From: a virus
Reading direction: 5' to 3' (one strand)
IMG/VR virus record: IMGVR_UViG_3300042731_000038
Coordinates: 1-23,781 of that record
Length of the DNA: 23,781 nt
How positions within the stretch are numbered: position 1 is the stretch's first letter; every line of letters starts with the position of its first letter. Below are positions 1,004 to 8,237 of this stretch, piece after piece. The notes under the pieces are model-generated. The model did no database searches. It worked only from the letters and a program-made list of their open reading frames with translations, and was not told the DNA's origin. The position numbers and the translations under genes are program-made.

Positions 1004-1671
1004 CAGTTGTTAGGTTCGAGTGCAATGAAGTATTTGATACCGTCGCCACGGAACTCGGCAACGTTTTGCTTACTGATCATAACGTGATAACTGCCTGGCA
1101 GCAACTTCAGGTTCTCAACCTTGAAGCAGAAGCAGAACTCTTCATCACCGATCACAGCATCAGGAAGTTCAACAGAGTAACTGTTAGAAGTATCATTCTT
1201 CTTGTCTGTCACCATGATTTGTGCAGCACCTTCGTGACCATACAGACACAGATCAGGAAGTTGATACACAGCAGCAGCACGTTGAAGTTGCTGCAGAATA
1301 TCAGCACTCAGAGCAAAATCAACATCAATAGAAGGAAGAGTGATTGATTTCTCAGGAGGTTGAACAATGACATCGGGATCTGCATAGAAGAAACGAGTCT
1401 TAGAACGACCACGCTCATCACTTACAGTGACGTAATTGGACTGGGAAGTATCGATCTTTGGCGAATCAAAGAGAGACAGACCGCCAAGGAATACACCCAG
1501 ATCGTAAATAGAAATCTGCGAATCAAAGGACTCTTCAACGTCAGCGATAGCAAGAATGTTCTTATTGATGCTGAGAGTAGCAACTTGATTGCCAGGTTTG
1601 ATAACGATCGATTTGTTGATTGAACAAAAGTTCTTAAGGACTTCAACGGTGGACTTGGAAATTACTGTCAT
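1003..1671 (-). CDS. 45: Sliding clamp gp45 (DNA polymerase processivity factor)
   Basis: A 222-aa protein matching the length (T4: 228 aa) and position of the trimeric PCNA-like clamp gp45. It tethers gp43 polymerase to DNA and, in T4, also activates gp55-dependent late transcription. It has no catalytic motif. The sequence is the expected run of beta-rich repeats, and the C-terminal segment (GSYHVMISKQNVAEF...GIKYFIALEPNN) resembles gp45 C-termini. The ATG overlaps the stop of the DUF3310 gene (ATGA) and its own stop overlaps gp44. Identity rests on gene order, length and general sequence character; the gp44 neighbour makes it secure. Confidence 0.92.
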   Translation of the reverse strand: MTVISKSTVEVLKNFCSINKSIVIKPGNQVATLSINKNILAIADVEESFDSQISIYDLGVFLGGLSLFDSPKIDTSQSNYVTVSDERGRSKTRFFYADPDVIVQPPEKSITLPSIDVDFALSADILQQLQRAAAVYQLPDLCLYGHEGAAQIMVTDKKNDTSNSYSVELPDAVIGDEEFCFCFKVENLKLLPGSYHVMISKQNVAEFRGDGIKYFIALEPNN

Positions 1672-1943
1672 TGAGGATACTCTTCACGGTTTGAACTTTG
1701 GTCGCTGAAGTAAAGCAGCAACAATCCATAATGTAGGATCTTAATAATGTCACGACGGGCAGTGCCCTTCTTATCGTAACGAGAGGCATACTTCAGAATG
1801 TTTGATCTGCAGAACGCCTCAGCATCGCCACAGGCATCAATCAGGTCTAGCGTCTGAATCTTATCAGTTGCATAGTGCTGATTGTATGTGCCCGCGATGT
1901 AATCTTTCAACTCCTTCAGGAGTGCCTCTTCATTGTATTTCAT
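1668..1943 (-). CDS. DUF3310 family protein (T7 gp1.7 / SaV-like nucleotide kinase family)
   Basis: A 91-aa protein. The central block IQTLDLIDACGDAEAFCRSN followed by ILKYASRYDKKGTARRDIIKI and a C-terminal tyrosine/leucine helix matches the DUF3310 pattern: an 'I..ID..' stretch, a residue run ending in K-Y-x-x-R, then KG-x-x-x-D-I-x-K. In T7 a family member (gp1.7) has been linked to nucleotide monophosphate phosphorylation; whether this copy has that activity is unknown. The frame also opens at a TTG (1949-1947) overlapping the cobS stop as TTGA, adding two residues; I chose the ATG at 1943-1941. It is coupled to gp45 by ATGA and so sits in the clamp operon. Confidence 0.78.
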   Translation of the reverse strand: MKYNEEALLKELKDYIAGTYNQHYATDKIQTLDLIDACGDAEAFCRSNILKYASRYDKKGTARRDIIKILHYGLLLLYFSDQSSNREEYPQ

Positions 1944-1945
1944 AA

Positions 1946-3019
1946 TCAAAAGGGTTCATCCCCATTATTGTACTCTGAATCGTCTCCTGCGTCAACCTTA
2001 GTGTAGAGGTCAAGGAAGGATTGTTTGGTGTCATCATCGAAACGATTGACACACTTGGTGATAGCGTCAATACGATCACCGAAGATTTGATATGCCTGAA
2101 CGATGTGAACCAGACGACGAGTGGTGATGACCTCATCAACTCCACCGTCAAAGAAAGTCTTACGGATCACACCTGCCCACTTGACAAGGTTATCAGCAAA
2201 CTCTTGATCACATCCTACATTCATGAGAATCTTAGTCTCAACAGTAGCAGCAGGATAATCTTGCTCGAAGGTTACAGGGAAACGCTCAAGGAACGCTTCG
2301 TTGAGAATATTGGTTCCAACAAAGCGACCGTCATCGCTGCCTTTACCTTTAGTATTTGCAGTTGCAATAACATTGAATCCATCCGTGGGGCGAATATATT
2401 TACCAATCTTCTTAAGGAATACTCCCTTGCCTTCAAGTACGGATTGCAGACACAGAATCTTGTTAGAAGCAAGGTCGATCTCATCTAGAAGAAGTACAGC
2501 TCCCCTCTCCAAAGCTTCGATGACAGGACCATTGTGCCACACAGTATCACCATCAACAAGACGGAACCCGCCAATAAGATCATCTTCGTCTGTTTCGATG
2601 GTGATGTTGACACGGATCAATTCTCGCTTACTTGCTGCACACGCTTGTTCGACAGAGAGCGTTTTACCATTGCCCGAGAGACCCGTGATAAATGCAGGGT
2701 AGAATTTACGGGAAGCAATAATCTTTTTAACAGACTGAAAGTTACCAAACTGGACGAAGGAATCATCTTTTTCTGGGATGTAATTTACAGCGGATGTTGC
2801 AGAAGGTGCTTCGTATGCCTGCTGAATTTCTTGAGCAGTAAGGTTCCAGACACCTGTACCTGATTTATAAGACTTAAGACGCTTGCATGCAGTAGCGTAA
2901 GATACGTTCAACTGCATCGCTGCTTCACGGATGTTGGCACAACCCACCTCAGATCCAACGTGCTCAGTCAGATACTGAACAAGATCTTCGGTTGTCACGG
3001 GGTTTGGAGCAAAAGGCAT
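1946..3019 (-). CDS. cobS: CobS-like MoxR-type AAA+ ATPase
   Basis: A 357-aa AAA+ ATPase of the kind annotated in cyanophages as the cobaltochelatase subunit CobS. Residues 1-60 hold a helix-turn-helix-like segment (IREAAMQLNVSYATACKRLK, 30-49). Walker A is GLSGNGKT (113-120) and Walker B is LLLDE (176-180). In the aerobic B12 pathway CobS and CobT power cobalt insertion by CobN. MoxR-type ATPases more generally work with VWA-domain partners, and a VWA protein (CobT-like) lies just upstream here, separated only by a 47-aa ORF. It has its own promoter, and its A-rich leader has no Shine-Dalgarno sequence. The family is clear; actual cobaltochelatase activity is not shown. Confidence 0.85.
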   Translation of the reverse strand: MPFAPNPVTTEDLVQYLTEHVGSEVGCANIREAAMQLNVSYATACKRLKSYKSGTGVWNLTAQEIQQAYEAPSATSAVNYIPEKDDSFVQFGNFQSVKKIIASRKFYPAFITGLSGNGKTLSVEQACAASKRELIRVNITIETDEDDLIGGFRLVDGDTVWHNGPVIEALERGAVLLLDEIDLASNKILCLQSVLEGKGVFLKKIGKYIRPTDGFNVIATANTKGKGSDDGRFVGTNILNEAFLERFPVTFEQDYPAATVETKILMNVGCDQEFADNLVKWAGVIRKTFFDGGVDEVITTRRLVHIVQAYQIFGDRIDAITKCVNRFDDDTKQSFLDLYTKVDAGDDSEYNNGDEPF

Positions 3020-3044
3020 TGGTTTGTTTGTTTTGTATACAGTT

Positions 3045-3053
3045 ATTATAGCA
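3045..3053 (-). promoter_or_regulatory. Extended -10 promoter for the cobS-gp45-gp44 operon
   Basis: The minus strand reads TGCTATAAT, a perfect extended -10 element, about 25 bases before the cobS ATG. No good -35 box sits at the right distance (best is about 3 of 6 matches), as is common for extended -10 promoters. The same nine bases occur upstream of cobT. Confidence 0.65.
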
Positions 3054-3057
3054 GAAA

Positions 3058-3078
3058 GACCCAGCGATGTGCCAGGTC
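3058..3078 (-). terminator. Possible weak terminator or attenuator upstream of cobS
   Basis: On the minus strand GACCTGGC and GCTGGGTC can pair across the loop ACATC as an 8-bp stem with two G-U pairs, followed by TTTCT. It lies 13 bases after the stop of the 47-aa gene and just before the cobS -10 box. The T-tract is short, so strength would be low. Confidence 0.4.
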
Positions 3079-3090
3079 TAGGACAGTTAT

Positions 3091-3234
3091 TTAATCGAAC
3101 ACTGCTGTCACACCCATAAGGGTTGCCCCAGGGTTTCGTGCTAGAGCAATTTCCCTAGCGTGTTCGTAGTCTCTAGCAATTACAATCTCATCAAAGACTG
3201 TGCCAGCGATGTAGAGTTGAACTTTACACTTCAT
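3091..3234 (-). CDS. Small conserved phage protein, 47 aa, unknown function
   Basis: A 47-aa ORF starting MKCKVQLYIAGTVFDEIVIA and ending GVTAVFD. Its ATG overlaps the cobT stop codon (ATGA), so it is probably translated by coupling. The mix of short beta-like segments with a central alanine/arginine helix (ARDYEHAREIALARNP) suggests a compact alpha/beta fold. I recall similar short proteins in other T4-like cyanophages but cannot name a family. It fills the interval between cobT and the cobS promoter. No signal peptide or membrane segment is seen. Confidence 0.75.
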   Translation of the reverse strand: MKCKVQLYIAGTVFDEIVIARDYEHAREIALARNPGATLMGVTAVFD

Positions 3235-5372
3235 GCGATTTGCTCAATGAATGCATTGAGGATAGTTTTGTTTGTCATCTTAGAACCCATATGTTTCTTG
3301 AATGCCCTGGTAAGTTCTGCTCTGGTTGCAACTTCATTCTTCTGTTTGACATTAAGATTTTGAGTTCCAGCACCAGTGCCTTGATTTGGCATATAGAAAG
3401 ACTGAGTAAATCCAACTTTGTTTTTGATAGAAGCGAAGCGTTCTTTTCTCCACTGCTTATCAATAGATTCGATTTCATCGAATGCAAACTCACGAACAAG
3501 ACGAGTCAGTTCTGCTTTGCTGCAAATACGAATACCTACCCAATTGTAATCAGTGATTTCGCGATAGAAGGATACGATCTCCTTTGTAGTTTCATAAGCA
3601 CTGCTTGAGATTTTACGAGTGTATCCAGTCTTAGGATCGCGAAGGAAGAATACTTTACCACGAGCATGGCAAAGGTAGGTATATTTATATTCACTACCAT
3701 AATAACGACGATCTTCAGAAAGATGTTCGACGTAACTGATAGGATTTGCTTCACCGTCTGTGAGACAAATAACATTCACTTTGCTGACTCGCTCAACCTT
3801 CTTCATCTGTGCGACAATCTGACGAGTGCAATAGACTGCTTCAGCAAGAGGAGTGCCACCGAGAGCATACCTTGTGCAGGAACGCAAACGATATCCGTTC
3901 ATAGCAAACACCTGAAGATACACAAGTTGCATAGACTTCTCTAGAGATTGCTTGTTCTGCCTTGAAGAGAAGAACTCAAACAAAGTAAAGTCATCGAAGA
4001 CACCAAGTTCATTTTCTTTCTGGGTAATATCATCACCCTCACGCCTGCGATCCATACCATAACCAGACTGGAAAGCAAACACCCTGAACGGAATACCAAC
4101 TTTTTTACAGAACCAGATTAGATTGTAGGTTTGCTTCAGAGTGTCTAGGAGTTGATTACCCATAGAACCAGACCAGTCAAGATGCATCACAAGACCGTGA
4201 TTCTTACCTTCAGGAACAACAGTAGTCTTCTTGAAGATGTCATCATTGTACTTGTAAGTGTGCAGTTTGTTAGTGTCAAGAACACCAGTCCTAGCAGTTG
4301 CAGCACGACGATATTCGTCTGCAGACTTCTTCATTTCAAACTGCTTACACAGATAGTTGACAGTCTTCTGAGTGTCTTTCTTGAAACTCTCGTAGTGAGA
4401 GACTCCATATTGAATGTTCTTCTCCCAATACTCTTTGTCTGCATCATCATGATGAGCACCTTCATAGAAGAATTGTTGGAGATCGGTTTGAACTTCTTTG
4501 TATGGAACGATAATGTTATCGATATCAGGAGTAGGAACAGTAAGATACACCCACTCTTTAGCATTGTCATCAATTAGAGTTTCCAATGCTTGAGCAAGTG
4601 CTTCATCAGTCACACACTCAGTTTCATCAGTCTCTCCTCCTCCTTGATAGGAAGGCACATCAAGTTGTGCGTCATCAGAATCAGAATCAGATTCAGTTTG
4701 CTGCTCAGATTCTCCGTCATCGGTGCTTTCAGTTTCAGACTCTTTCTCATCAGTAACAGGATCAACTTCCTCTTGCTCATCAGGAGTCTGAGTTCCATCA
4801 GGTGATGGCATAGCAGGCATAGGTTCAGATTCTTTCTGCTCCTGTTGCTCAGCACAGTAATCGTAGAGTTCCTTTGCGAGTTGCTTGACCTCAGCAAAGG
4901 TCTTGGTGTTAGCGACACGATCAACCCACTCCATTTCAACGTCAGAGAAAGGAAGATTGGGGTTGCCTTTGAAGTAAAGGTTGATACGGTCGATGAATGA
5001 TAGGTCTGCAGGATCTTCGTCCTTCACACCGAAGAAGTCTTGATCCCACAGTTCACTGTACCCATCAAAGAAAGAACGGCGAAGACCAGGATAAGTGACC
5101 TTCATCATACGCTCAATGCGTGCATCCTCCAGAACATTCACAAATGACCTAGGTGCATCACCAAAGGATTCGTTAGGAGTATACAGAGCGTGCCCAACTT
5201 CATGTCCCACTAGGAGATCGTAGACAGTGTTGGAAGCAGTCTTCCAGATGGGCAGGATGAGGAGTCGCTTCTCCACGTCGAAGCAGGCAGTGCTCACTTT
5301 CCGATGCTCCACAGTAAGATTCTCAGTTGCGAGCAGTTTAGCGAGGGTGCCTTTGACTTCTTGTGTGTTCAT
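3231..5372 (-). CDS. cobT: CobT-like protein with HExxH metalloprotease-like motif and VWA domain
   Basis: A 713-aa protein with three regions. Residues about 30-110 contain HEVGH (57-61) followed by NVLEDARIER (79-88), an HExxH plus downstream acidic pattern typical of zinc peptidases. Residues about 175-255 are a low-complexity acidic Glu/Asp/Ser/Gln linker. The C-terminal half is a von Willebrand A domain with MIDAS motif DWSGS (399-403) and a later LTDGEA segment. The acidic linker plus VWA layout is that of the cobaltochelatase subunit CobT, which forms a complex with CobS; a CobS-like ATPase follows downstream. The HExxH motif is not something I associate with classical CobT, so a MoxR/VWA-type chaperone or peptidase role is a real alternative. 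Confidence 0.82.
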   Translation of the reverse strand: MNTQEVKGTLAKLLATENLTVEHRKVSTACFDVEKRLLILPIWKTASNTVYDLLVGHEVGHALYTPNESFGDAPRSFVNVLEDARIERMMKVTYPGLRRSFFDGYSELWDQDFFGVKDEDPADLSFIDRINLYFKGNPNLPFSDVEMEWVDRVANTKTFAEVKQLAKELYDYCAEQQEQKESEPMPAMPSPDGTQTPDEQEEVDPVTDEKESETESTDDGESEQQTESDSDSDDAQLDVPSYQGGGETDETECVTDEALAQALETLIDDNAKEWVYLTVPTPDIDNIIVPYKEVQTDLQQFFYEGAHHDDADKEYWEKNIQYGVSHYESFKKDTQKTVNYLCKQFEMKKSADEYRRAATARTGVLDTNKLHTYKYNDDIFKKTTVVPEGKNHGLVMHLDWSGSMGNQLLDTLKQTYNLIWFCKKVGIPFRVFAFQSGYGMDRRREGDDITQKENELGVFDDFTLFEFFSSRQNKQSLEKSMQLVYLQVFAMNGYRLRSCTRYALGGTPLAEAVYCTRQIVAQMKKVERVSKVNVICLTDGEANPISYVEHLSEDRRYYGSEYKYTYLCHARGKVFFLRDPKTGYTRKISSSAYETTKEIVSFYREITDYNWVGIRICSKAELTRLVREFAFDEIESIDKQWRKERFASIKNKVGFTQSFYMPNQGTGAGTQNLNVKQKNEVATRAELTRAFKKHMGSKMTNKTILNAFIEQIA

Positions 5373-5391
5373 CCGTTTTTCTTGAGTACCC

Positions 5392-5610
5392 TTATATTAT
5401 AGCAGACTTTTCCAGGTGACAAGGTGACGGGGTGACAGTTTTGTTACTGTCCCAATGCCTCACCACTCCAGATATGATGAAAGCGTTAGTGACCATGTAA
5501 CTAATAAAAATACTGGTGCGTATGAGAGCAACGTAATTATCATAAGGAGCTGTCTTGTCGTCACTGAAACTACCTAAACTATACTTCCATATGTCCCAAA
5601 TCTTTTTCAC
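5392..5610 (-). CDS. Small probable membrane protein, 72 aa, cyanophage-conserved
   Basis: The ORF begins at GTG (5610-5608), overlapping the stop of the glutaredoxin-like gene as GTGA, and encodes MKKIWDIWKYSLGSFSDDKT. Residues about 27-47 (YVALIRTSIFISYMVTNAFIISGVV) form one hydrophobic segment, suggesting a single membrane span with a short tail. I recall similar proteins, also starting with a KIW..WKYSLGSFSDDKT-like motif, in other T4-like cyanophages; the function is unknown. The last residues (about 56-72) are encoded by DNA that also carries the GTCACC repeats and the cobT promoter, so the C-terminus may be shaped by regulatory DNA. Confidence 0.75.
   Translation of the reverse strand: MKKIWDIWKYSLGSFSDDKTAPYDNYVALIRTSIFISYMVTNAFIISGVVRHWDSNKTVTPSPCHLEKSAII
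5396..5404 (-). promoter_or_regulatory. Extended -10 promoter for cobT
   Basis: The minus strand reads TGCTATAAT, a perfect extended -10, about 25 bases before the cobT ATG. A TTGTCA lies 15 bases upstream of the TATAAT as a possible -35. The element lies in the last codons of the upstream 72-aa gene. Confidence 0.65.
5415..5436 (-). repeat. Three tandem GTCACC units at 8-base spacing upstream of the cobT promoter
   Basis: On the plus strand GGTGAC occurs at 5415-5420, 5423-5428 and 5431-5436, an exact 8-base period. The array overlaps the possible -35 of the cobT promoter and the 3' end of the 72-aa ORF. It could be an operator, but 8 bases is less than one helical turn. Confidence 0.6.
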
Positions 5611-5843
5611 ACAAACATTCCTTTCTGATTCATATAGTTTAGGGTTTCTTTCAGTCCACCAATATGCCTTGGACCCATTGCAATCTGAGGGTAGTGTGCA
5701 TCACCACCAAACTCCATTTCAAACTCGTGCTTTTCAAAATGCTTTCCGAGATGATAGACAATAACATTACTGTGAACTGCTCTCATCAAATTAACAGCTC
5801 GCTCACATTCCTGATTGCCGTTACTGTAAATAATTGCTTCCAT
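5607..5843 (-). CDS. Glutaredoxin-like protein lacking the first active-site cysteine
   Basis: A 78-aa thioredoxin-fold protein of glutaredoxin size. The N-terminal strand plus active-site region reads IIYSNGNQECERAV (4-17), and the later YPQIAMGPRHIGG corresponds to the cis-proline and GG-turn segment of glutaredoxins. Where glutaredoxins carry CPYC, this protein has NQEC, so only the second cysteine (C13) remains. Classical dithiol or monothiol catalysis needs the first cysteine, so it may be a binding protein or use different chemistry. Cyanophages usually annotate this as glutaredoxin (T4 NrdC role: electrons for ribonucleotide reductase). The ATG overlaps the preceding stop as TAATG. Confidence 0.8.
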   Translation of the reverse strand: MEAIIYSNGNQECERAVNLMRAVHSNVIVYHLGKHFEKHEFEMEFGGDAHYPQIAMGPRHIGGLKETLNYMNQKGMFV

Positions 5844-5965
5844 TAGTCACGTTGTCTCCAATCGTCGATTTCTTCTTGTGTAGGAACTTTAATTCGGAAA
5901 GGAAGACCTTCCTCCTCAAACTCCTCATTCATCTTTTCGTATGTTTCAGGAGTAATCTCAATCAC
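5843..5965 (-). CDS. Very small ORF, 40 aa, sharing its C-terminal DDWRQRD with its neighbour
   Basis: The frame runs from a GTG (5965-5963) to a TAA overlapping the glutaredoxin-like ATG (TAATG). It encodes MIEITPETYEKMNEEFEEEG, then LPFRIKVPTQEEIDDWRQRD. The start overlaps the stop of the upstream 105-aa gene by 8 bases, so the three genes are tightly coupled. The last seven residues, DDWRQRD, are identical to the end of the upstream protein, and the DNA under them is a 20-base exact repeat. The product is acidic and probably helical. The function is unknown. Support is coupling, sensible codon use and the absence of any other gene in this gap. Confidence 0.6.
   Translation of the reverse strand: MIEITPETYEKMNEEFEEEGLPFRIKVPTQEEIDDWRQRD
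5847..5866. repeat. 20-bp direct repeat, copy 1
   Basis: Plus-strand tcacgttgtctccaatcgtc recurs exactly at 5962-5981, 115 bases away. On the minus strand it encodes the DDWRQRD C-terminus of the 40-aa gene. Confidence 0.9.
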
Positions 5966-6275
5966 GTTGTCTCCAATCGTCAGGTTTATCGCGTTGGAAC
6001 CAATCTACAATTTCATCAGCTCCAGTGAACCCCGTTCTGTGATTGGATGGGTCGGGGTCACCTAGTCCCATCCTATTCATAAAATCATCCATACTACCCT
6101 CTCTCATATCAGGGTTTGCGGCTTGGCGTCTTGCCTTGTTCAACCAATCTCTAGCAAGCGTATGGGACTTTGCTAGTTTTTCTGCCCAGATCATGTCCTC
6201 TAGGGGGACTTCTTCGTTCTTAGCGATACACGCACAGATGGACTCCAAACGGAGTCGATACGCAGTCGAGAGCAT
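5958..6275 (-). CDS. Conserved cyanophage protein, 105 aa, unknown function
   Basis: A 105-aa protein. The N-terminal half (MLSTAYRLRLESICACIAKN through RDWLNKARRQAANPD) looks alpha-helical and basic, followed by a Gly/Asp/Pro-rich stretch (MGLGDPDPSNHRTGF) and a terminal EIVDWFQRDKPDDWRQRD. I recall related proteins in many T4-like cyanophages, always without an assigned function. The two cysteines (C14, C16) are close together but no metal site is evident. It precedes the 40-aa gene, whose GTG start lies within its last codons. The upstream gap of 21 bases follows a CTAAATAA sequence formed by the stop codon of the 65-aa gene. Confidence 0.8.
   Translation of the reverse strand: MLSTAYRLRLESICACIAKNEEVPLEDMIWAEKLAKSHTLARDWLNKARRQAANPDMREGSMDDFMNRMGLGDPDPSNHRTGFTGADEIVDWFQRDKPDDWRQRD
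5962..5981. repeat. 20-bp direct repeat, copy 2
   Basis: An exact second copy of the repeat at 5847-5866. Here it encodes the DDWRQRD C-terminus of the 105-aa gene and also contains the GTG start of the 40-aa gene. Confidence 0.9.
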
Positions 6276-6296
6276 AAACCTACACCAGATACAGTG

Positions 6297-6494
6297 TTAT
6301 TTAGATTCTAACATCGATGTCAACTCCTCAGTTTTGTTCCAGTCAGCATATGCTGAATCAGAACGTGCTTCGAGAATATCTAAAATGTCATCACGAATCA
6401 CTTCATTAGACACATAGTCATCGAGGTACATATCAAGTGCTTCCTTGAGATACCTTTTACGGTGCCACTCAGGCGAATATGGTTTGTAATCCAT
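6297..6494 (-). CDS. Conserved cyanophage protein, 65 aa, unknown function
   Basis: A 65-aa acidic, helical protein beginning MDYKPYSPEWHRKRYLKEAL. I recall this N-terminal block (YKPYS.EWHRKRYLKEALD) from other cyanomyoviruses, but no function is known to me. The rest (DDYVSNEVIRDDILDILEAR) looks like two amphipathic helices. It follows gp46 with a 24-base gap containing CTAAATAAAA on the minus strand, which could be a weak late-type box, and it starts the small-gene cluster that leads to the glutaredoxin-like gene. Confidence 0.8.
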   Translation of the reverse strand: MDYKPYSPEWHRKRYLKEALDMYLDDYVSNEVIRDDILDILEARSDSAYADWNKTEELTSMLESK

Positions 6495-6518
6495 GATGTA
6501 AGGTTTGAGTAATTTTAT

Positions 6519-8237
6519 TTAGGACTCATCAGACATCTTAGAAAAGTCATTGACTTTTTCAAACTTGATGGTCCTGAGGAACTTGTCTACTAGAATATCC
6601 CCTTTGTGAGATATAACAAAGACATTAGTACCGTTGCCGAGACTGCGAAGAATTTGCAGAAGTTCAGCAGTGCCTGACGAGTCCAAAGATGAATCAAATA
6701 CCTCGTCAAGTATGAGTAAGTTGGTGGCAACACTGTTCTTCATCCTAGCGACTTCGCGCCAAGTAAACAGCAATGCGAGGTCAATCTTTTGTTTCTCTCC
6801 CTCAGAGAAAGATGCATATGAAAATTCATCCCTAAAACGACTTTTAATAACCTCTCCAAACTCTTCGTCTAGCGTGAAGTTAACAAAGAAGTCCATCGAT
6901 TGAAGGTATTTATTAATCAGTTGATTAAAGACAGGTACATATTTTTTGATAATCTGACGTTTGATGCCAGAGTCTTTCAGCAGAGTAGACACAACCTGAT
7001 ACTCATCAAGTTGCTGACTAACTGCAGCACAGTCTTTTTCAGTCTTTTGATGTTCCTTCGTTAGTGTTTCAAGGATCTTTTCATGTTCAATGATACTAGG
7101 TCTGTCTTGCAGTTCTAGAATCTGTTTGTTGATCTCAAGGTTCTCCATCTCCAGACGAACAACCTCTCGTTCAGCCGCAGTTGCATCACTACGAGTCTCA
7201 TACAGTTTAGCAGAGACTTCTTCCATTTTAGTGATGACTTCTACTGCTTCAGCAATATCTTCAGAATATCCTTCGATTTCAGTAGCAAGATTCTTACCCC
7301 ACTTAGTCAAGGTCTTGACCTGATCTTCTTTGAAGTTTTTACTGATCTCCTGAGTACAGGTAGGACAACTGTGATTATCTTTGAAGAACTTCAGATCTTT
7401 AGAGATCAACTTGAGTTCAGACTTTTTATCTGCCTGACCTTGACGAAGTTTACGAACAAACTTCCTCTGAGATTCTGTGTCGCCAATCTGTTCTTCTAGG
7501 ATGACAATATCATCCTTGAGTTTCTGGTGACGGAGTGACGCATCTTCAATCTTCTGTTCATTAGTTTGAATCCTCTGTCGTCTTTCTTCCTGACGATTCT
7601 CATTTACTTCTTGTAGAGATGAGATCAATCTATTTTGAGAAGTCAACTTCTCTGAAGACAGACGAAGCATATGTCCACAATCATTTTGTTGCTGTTGGGT
7701 AGAACGAACTCTATCCTTCAACAATGCATTCATGTTTGAGAAGATGTTGATATCAAGTAGATCTTCAATAACTTCTCGTCGGTGAGATGCTTGGAGTTGC
7801 ATGAAGGGGACAAAAGTTGATGATCCCAGTATGACAACTTGAGTAAAACTTTTGAAATTGAGTTTGAGGATTGACTGCTCCAAGTATTTCTGCGTGTCCT
7901 TGACGGCAGCGTCCTGGTCAACCAGTTTATGATTCTTATAAAGTTCAAATACATTGGGTTTGATTCCCCTGAATACACGATACTCATCTTTGCCAATAGA
8001 GAAACACACTTCTACTTTCGTGCCCTTCTCATTGATACTGTTTACCAGTTGACTTTTGTTGATCTTTCTGAACGGTTTGTTGAACAAAGCAAAACACAGG
8101 GCGTCCAACATAGTGGACTTCCCTGCGCCATTGTCTCCAACAATCAATGTTGATGGTGATTCGCAAAAATCAATCTCTGTCCACTGGTCACCTGTAGATA
8201 AAAAATTCTTCCAGCGGATAGTCTCAAATGTAATCAT
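6519..8237 (-). CDS. 46: Recombination endonuclease subunit gp46 (Rad50/SbcC-like ATPase)
   Basis: The 572-aa ATPase subunit of the gp46/gp47 complex, which resects DNA ends for recombination-dependent replication and degrades host DNA in T4. Walker A is GDNGAGKS (34-41). Long heptad-rich coiled-coil regions (about 170-285 and 300-415) flank a zinc-hook CPTC (291-294). The ABC signature is SFSEGE (477-482) and Walker B is NLLILDE (506-512). The length matches T4 gp46 (560 aa). Its ATG shares one base with the stop of the DUF3110-like gene, so gp47, DUF3110-like and gp46 form one operon. All catalytic landmarks are intact. Confidence 0.96.
   Translation of the reverse strand: MITFETIRWKNFLSTGDQWTEIDFCESPSTLIVGDNGAGKSTMLDALCFALFNKPFRKINKSQLVNSINEKGTKVEVCFSIGKDEYRVFRGIKPNVFELYKNHKLVDQDAAVKDTQKYLEQSILKLNFKSFTQVVILGSSTFVPFMQLQASHRREVIEDLLDINIFSNMNALLKDRVRSTQQQQNDCGHMLRLSSEKLTSQNRLISSLQEVNENRQEERRQRIQTNEQKIEDASLRHQKLKDDIVILEEQIGDTESQRKFVRKLRQGQADKKSELKLISKDLKFFKDNHSCPTCTQEISKNFKEDQVKTLTKWGKNLATEIEGYSEDIAEAVEVITKMEEVSAKLYETRSDATAAEREVVRLEMENLEINKQILELQDRPSIIEHEKILETLTKEHQKTEKDCAAVSQQLDEYQVVSTLLKDSGIKRQIIKKYVPVFNQLINKYLQSMDFFVNFTLDEEFGEVIKSRFRDEFSYASFSEGEKQKIDLALLFTWREVARMKNSVATNLLILDEVFDSSLDSSGTAELLQILRSLGNGTNVFVISHKGDILVDKFLRTIKFEKVNDFSKMSDES

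Follow-up and report, generated by a model that had tools for sequence, protein, structure and literature searches.

The 23,781-base stretch of DNA analysed here (the window), IMG/VR record IMGVR_UViG_3300042731_000038, is a T4-like cyanophage contig that carries a pair of cobS-like and cobT-like genes. The question that this locus raises is what the pair does. The cobS gene is counted as a core auxiliary metabolic gene of T4-like cyanophages and is cited for a viral boost to vitamin B12 in the ocean, and published views of the pair conflict, one holding that it is a misannotated peptidase that aids CobN and the other that it is a metallopeptidase pair for virion assembly. We favour, with a probability of about 60%, the reading that a MoxR-family AAA+ ATPase is paired with a VWA co-protein bearing an intact gluzincin-type metallopeptidase domain, and that the two are not cobaltochelatase subunits. 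The families are known and their function is contested; the CobT relation and the DNA context are added here.

The gene pair and its motifs

The CobT-like and CobS-like proteins were encoded by two adjacent minus-strand open reading frames (ORFs). The features of the pair in the window were as follows.

3231..5372, minus strand: ORF of the CobT-like protein (713 amino acids; zincin domain, acidic linker and VWA domain), matching phrog_459 'peptidase' with E=0 over residues 1-713
4803..5372, minus strand: N-terminal gluzincin-like domain, residues 1-190, from an AlphaFold2 model and Foldseek zincin matches
5190..5204, minus strand: HEVGH, residues 57-61, at the centre of helix 48-64; H57, E58 and H61 invariant in 163 homologues
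5112..5129, minus strand: EDARIE, residues 82-87, on helix 75-93; E82, D83 and R85 invariant
4518..4856, minus strand: acidic linker, residues about 173-285, 33% aspartate plus glutamate
3393..4205 (limits approximate), minus strand: VWA domain with a full metal-ion-dependent adhesion site (MIDAS; D399, S401, S403, T507, D539), from conservation, motifs and a CobT VWA profile match
1946..3019, minus strand: CobS-like MoxR-family AAA+ ATPase (357 amino acids), AAA_5 4.6e-17 and CbbQ_C 24.1 bits (cut-off 20.6)
2840..3019, minus strand: tentative N-terminal three-helix domain of the AAA+ protein, residues 1-60, resembling a helix-turn-helix (HTH), from AlphaFold2 and Foldseek

A reading made from the letters alone (the sequence-only reading) had named the HEVGH and EDARIE motifs, the acidic linker, the MIDAS and the MoxR-type neighbour, and all of these were borne out. 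H57 and H61 are predicted zinc ligands, E82 is the predicted third ligand and E58 the predicted general base. The sequence DWSGS stands at residues 399-403 of the CobT-like protein, and T507 and D539 complete the MIDAS. The AAA+ protein has a Walker A motif (GNGKT, from residue 116) and a Walker B motif (LLLDEID, from 176), so that a Walker A/B ATPase adjoins a VWA protein with a full MIDAS, as in MoxR AAA+/VWA pairs. This AAA+ protein belonged to phrog_249 (2.4e-146), labelled porphyrin biosynthesis, and its PDB relatives were CobS, NorQ, CbbQ and Midasin. The Pfam CobT domains PF06213 (N-domain) and PF11775 (VWA) gave no match in the window protein at E<=1, and PADLOC assigned the pair to no defence system. 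The architecture of the pair, an AAA+ protein with a zincin-VWA protein, is very probable.

Conservation of the HExxH site

HExxH appeared in 1.7% of composition-matched shuffles of the CobT-like protein, and HExxH with E[DE] 15-60 residues downstream in 0.7%. The motif is therefore not rare enough by chance to stand alone, and conservation is the real test. We aligned 163 phage homologues from cyanophages, pelagiphages and Ochrobactrum phages. The first 80 IMG/VR homologues were fetched by peptide patterns that lay outside the HExxH motif and are thus unbiased for it, while the second 80 were fetched by patterns that contain the motif, are biased, and count less. H57, E58, H61, N79, E82, D83, R85 and G96 were invariant in all 163 homologues, as were D399, S401, S403 and D539 of the MIDAS; 39 of the 713 columns were fully invariant. 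When the first 80 homologues were taken with S-PM2, HTVC008M and Ochrobactrum phage OC, HEVGH was present in 82 of 83, and phage OC had HESAH. The alignment that the sequence-only reading had proposed for H57, E58, H61 and E82 thus came out in its favour, and the loss of conservation that would have told against it was not seen. A chance motif was rejected on this invariance. An HExxH within a helix and a downstream glutamate on the following helix, both invariant, are what is expected of a gluzincin.

By tblastn, 463 phage records contained cobT, and 459 contained cobS over 80% or more of its length. The cobT and cobS counts were equal in cyanophages (Synechococcus 365, Cyanophage 61 and Prochlorococcus 24 records), which shows that the two genes travel together, and almost every T4-like virus of marine cyanobacteria has the pair.

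Predicted fold

Residues 1-192 of the CobT-like protein were modelled by AlphaFold2 from a 67-row alignment, with a mean predicted local distance difference test score (pLDDT) of 90.7 and a predicted template modelling score (pTM) of 0.84. The model placed three strands before helix 48-64, which carries HEVGH, and helix 75-93, which carries E82, D83 and E87, followed by further helices. This comparison of the N-domain with known structures had also been proposed from the sequence, and the top nine Foldseek matches of the model in the PDB were all zincins (ArdC, selecase, PprI, abylysin), with weak E-values. Against viral models, Foldseek retrieved phage VWFA/'CobT' proteins, HHTV-2 gene 2, and SprT and IrrE proteins. 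Sequence searches of the PDB with the cyanophage CobT-like protein or its domain profile gave no relevant match. The CobT-like protein is probably a catalytically active peptidase.

The AlphaFold2 model of the AAA+ N-terminus had helices at residues 10-20, 27-36 and 41-49, with a pLDDT of about 80 in the core and 70 overall. Foldseek matches of this domain were weak, and many were to DNA-binding HTH and homeodomain proteins, a tentative likeness. When a profile of the CobS N-domain was run against the PDB, nothing relevant was returned.

Relation to cobaltochelatase CobT and CobS

HExxH was absent from CobT in 80 of 80 alphaproteobacterial loci, and the CobT proteins of S. meliloti and Rhizobium were likewise without it. 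The sequence-only reading had held that a bacterial CobT with this motif and a proven chelatase-only function would refute it; the homologous N-domain was found in true CobT, the motif in none. At the aligned position true CobT has a degenerate segment, but the counterparts of E82 and R85, Glu106 (73/74) and Arg109 (74/74), are kept.

The homology was traced through mobile-element relatives because the cyanophage domain and true CobT matched weakly when compared directly. An hhalign comparison gave a probability of 97.8 for the cyanophage domain against the mobile-element domain and 96.8 for the latter against true CobT. One of these relatives, the SSU5 protein, has HEVAH and also matched PF06213 at 2e-37, and the Roseophage CRP-810 relative matched the CobT Pfam families too. 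The VWA half matched the CobT VWA domain directly (hhalign probability 98.0, E 3e-13). Homology of the phage N-domain with the N-domain of true CobT, through these relatives, is thus supported at the level of sequence profiles.

Neither window protein reached the level of a true cobaltochelatase subunit. The CobT equivalog TIGR01651 (cut-off 759 bits) left the window protein unmatched, while S. meliloti CobT scored 1166; with the CobS equivalog TIGR01650 (cut-off 558.55 bits) the window AAA+ protein reached only 64.5 bits, and PF12556, the N-domain of CobS, was not found in it. In a rough tree with midpoint rooting, true CobT formed one clade beside Roseophage CRP-810, inside the mobile-element proteins. 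The deep branches of this tree were poorly supported, and therefore loss of the protease site in CobT is the more likely direction of change but not proven.

We also looked at the cellular genes. Among 40 alphaproteobacterial genomes with true CobT (no HExxH), 24 had no PF02514 match of the CobN/ChlH type, some of the genomes being incomplete; CobT-positive, PF02514-negative genomes included SAR11 single cells of about 1 Mb. The Caulobacter vibrioides control was CobT-positive and CobN-negative. In S. meliloti and Rhizobium, cobST adjoins BolA and DnaJ genes. It may be that cellular CobST serves a purpose other than B12 synthesis.

Relatives in other phages, plasmids and archaeal viruses

The HExxH...ED site was also present in SSU5, a Cronobacter phage-plasmid, Roseophage CRP-810, Rhizobium phage X66 and a P. 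aeruginosa plasmid. The VWA protein of an IncC plasmid had HEAAH...LEDCRIE, an IncHI2 plasmid relative had HEAGH, and the ICP2 relative had HECYH with Asp replacing Glu. In the haloarchaeal virus HHTV-2 the system was split into three separate ORFs, a zincin (HEVQH...VLEDNHID), a VWA protein and an AAA+ protein, at 416-1483, 1703-2989 and 5983-7365. The HHTV-2 AAA+ protein had an N-terminal HTH (HTH_20, 4e-6), and the AAA+ partners in SSU5 and X66 had weak zinc-finger-like N-termini. The locus of a Staphylococcus Kayvirus with a CobS-like AAA+ gene (4737-6712) was not used, two neighbouring ORFs having been examined and found without HExxH; the gene next to the AAA+ gene showed neither MIDAS nor HExxH.

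Genomic neighbourhood and promoters

The gene order in the window was gp44, gp45, a DUF3310 protein, cobS, cobT, a glutaredoxin-like ORF, gp46, gp47 and structural genes, with gp46 and gp47 assigned by similarity to S-PM2. Across diverse cyanophage loci the order was gp47-142-gp46-(507-grx)-cobT-cobS-DUF3310-gp45-gp44. In other carriers, a DNA polymerase III alpha (dnaE) gene lay near the pair in SSU5, the Cronobacter phage-plasmid, X66 and ANB28, the ICP2 pair had primase, helicase and polymerase neighbours, and the IncHI2 pair had a Toprim primase. The order on the IncC plasmid (792-8785) was AAA+, hypothetical, ssb, bet, exonuclease, DUF3150 and VWA protein. Because DNA-related neighbours and DNA-binding-like AAA+ N-termini recur, a correlative observation, we propose a role in replication or recombination, to which we give slightly less than even odds.

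Other features of these neighbourhoods were noted. On the IncC plasmid the AAA+ and VWA genes bracket a recombination module, with ssb-bet-exo between them. The DUF3310 protein (window 1668-1949) lies between cobS and gp45, a position kept in relatives, and in PHROGs matches DUF3310 is frequently accompanied by, or fused with, phage nucleotide kinases. The short thioredoxin/glutaredoxin-like ORF (phrog_22, window 5607-5843) directly upstream of cobT is shared by some of the relatives.

Two promoter-like elements, the only exact copies of CTGCTATAATA in the window, preceded the start codons of the two genes by 22 and 24 nt.

5395..5405, minus strand: promoter-like CTGCTATAATA upstream of cobT
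3044..3054, minus strand: promoter-like CTGCTATAATA upstream of cobS

In relatives, 53 of 156 cobT genes and 86 of 144 cobS genes had YTATAAT in the 120 nt upstream, compared with a background of 4.7%. The earlier claim of separate matching promoters thus stands for both genes of the window and, above background, for relatives; it is not universal.

Proposed mechanism and alternative functions

In the mechanism that we propose, the AAA+ ring would dock on the VWA/MIDAS half of its CobT-like partner, and ATP hydrolysis by the ring would pull or remodel a client protein. The client would be handed to the zinc site of H57, H61 and E82, with E58 acting as the general base. It would probably be a DNA-bound, replisome or recombination protein of host or phage, and the N-terminal domain of the AAA+ protein may help to bring the complex to DNA.

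Several results weigh against this mechanism. Stenotrophomonas phage ANB28 (2846-4831) retains the pair with the site lost (DREVS) and is a natural inactive member, so that some members work without a protease site. The Foldseek zincin matches had probabilities of 0.54-0.97 but E-values of only 0.036-0.57, hhalign gave a probability of 27.6 when the cyanophage domain was aligned directly to true CobT, and the model of the cyanophage CobS N-terminus was of moderate confidence only. Replication and recombination genes are clustered in cyanophages, so that the cyanophage neighbourhood is one observation repeated by descent.

The sequence-only reading offered two options, a chelatase helper acting on a host protein and an AAA+-driven protease or chaperone; the latter is favoured here and the former is weakened. 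Liu et al. 2021 (PMC8651126) proposed that the phage-encoded CobST teams up with host CobN and increases the supply of cobalamin. Both subunits are homologous to CobS and CobT, and the host could supply CobN, since proteins of the CobN/ChlH type are present in cyanobacterial hosts (the PF02514 control matched in Synechococcus elongatus). However, the window pair fell below both equivalog cut-offs and has an intact protease site that true CobT lacks. No CobN/ChlH-type protein was encoded in any of 11 complete phage or plasmid records with the pair, which extends the earlier remark that CobN was not seen in the window. The pair is also found among the phages and plasmids of E. coli, Klebsiella, Salmonella and Vibrio cholerae, hosts not known to use CobNST. 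The nrdA/nrdB class of ribonucleotide reductase does not require B12. Cyanophages carry nrdA/nrdB genes (PMC5082946). We therefore consider a cobaltochelatase helper very improbable. Contrary to Liu et al. (PMC8651126), who called the cyanophage 'peptidase' label a mistake, we argue from the invariant catalytic residues that the label is probably right about the domain.

A machine for virion assembly or maturation, in which a MoxR-vWA chaperone and a peptidase process structural proteins, was put forward for the jumbo phages of group 2.2, with the Acidianus two-tailed virus as the parallel (Iyer et al. 2021, PMC7824862). That paper names the same architecture, and maturation proteases are commonly needed by phages. 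However, the cyanophage pair lies between gp46 and gp45, away from the structural genes, related pairs are found on conjugative plasmids, which make no virions, and the literature searched yielded no proteome evidence and nothing specific on the pair's expression time. We argue that the plasmid-borne members and the gene neighbourhood favour a role inside the cell, and assembly is an unlikely function. The pair might instead act as a chaperone that inserts metal into, or remodels, some other metalloprotein of host or phage, as do NorQ/NorD and CbbQ/CbbO, with a zinc site that is binding or structural and not proteolytic. Other MoxR/VWA pairs act in this way, the AAA+ protein is closest to CobS/NorQ/CbbQ, and the cases of true CobT and ANB28 show that a pair built in this way can function when it lacks the site. 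We give this little credence, since E58, which in zincins serves as catalytic base rather than as metal ligand, was invariant in the 163 homologues.

If the pair is a protease machine, the reading of a viral B12 boost should be dropped, and cobaltochelatase CobT would originate from a dead protease. Because the catalytic glutamate is conserved, a single point mutation could test the question. A wider proposal is speculative: the CobST-like pairs of archaeal viruses, tailed phages, phage-plasmids and conjugative plasmids may be one widespread AAA+ zinc protease tethered to DNA, which removes or processes proteins where replication and recombination take place, with the CobT of B12 synthesis as a domesticated member that lost its site.

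Comparison with known systems

Minigluzincins and their relatives (selecase, abylysin, PprI/IrrE, ArdC) share with the phage domain an HExxH helix directly followed by one that bears an acidic residue, but they have no VWA or AAA+ partner and low overall similarity to it. CbbQ/CbbO, NorQ/NorD, RavA/ViaA and Midasin resemble the phage pair in that a MoxR-type AAA+ protein acts with a VWA protein; none is known to have this HExxH domain in the VWA partner. Cobaltochelatase CobS/CobT (PDB 9uka and others; TIGR01650, TIGR01651, PF06213, PF11775) has AAA+/VWA partners and an acidic linker in common with the phage pair, and CobT shares the homologous N-domain with its conserved Glu-x-x-Arg. Unlike the phage protein, true CobT is without HExxH and works with CobN, and the N-terminus of true CobS is PF12556, whereas that of the phage AAA+ protein is an unrelated helical domain. 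The closest described architecture is that of the group 2.2 jumbo phage pair (PMC7824862), in which a MoxR AAA+ protein adjoins a vWA protein with an N-terminal metallopeptidase. The same paper places cyanophage P-SSM2 in group 2.1, and, in contrast to the virion assembly proposed there, the window pair lies in a replication/recombination cluster and its relation to CobT has been traced.

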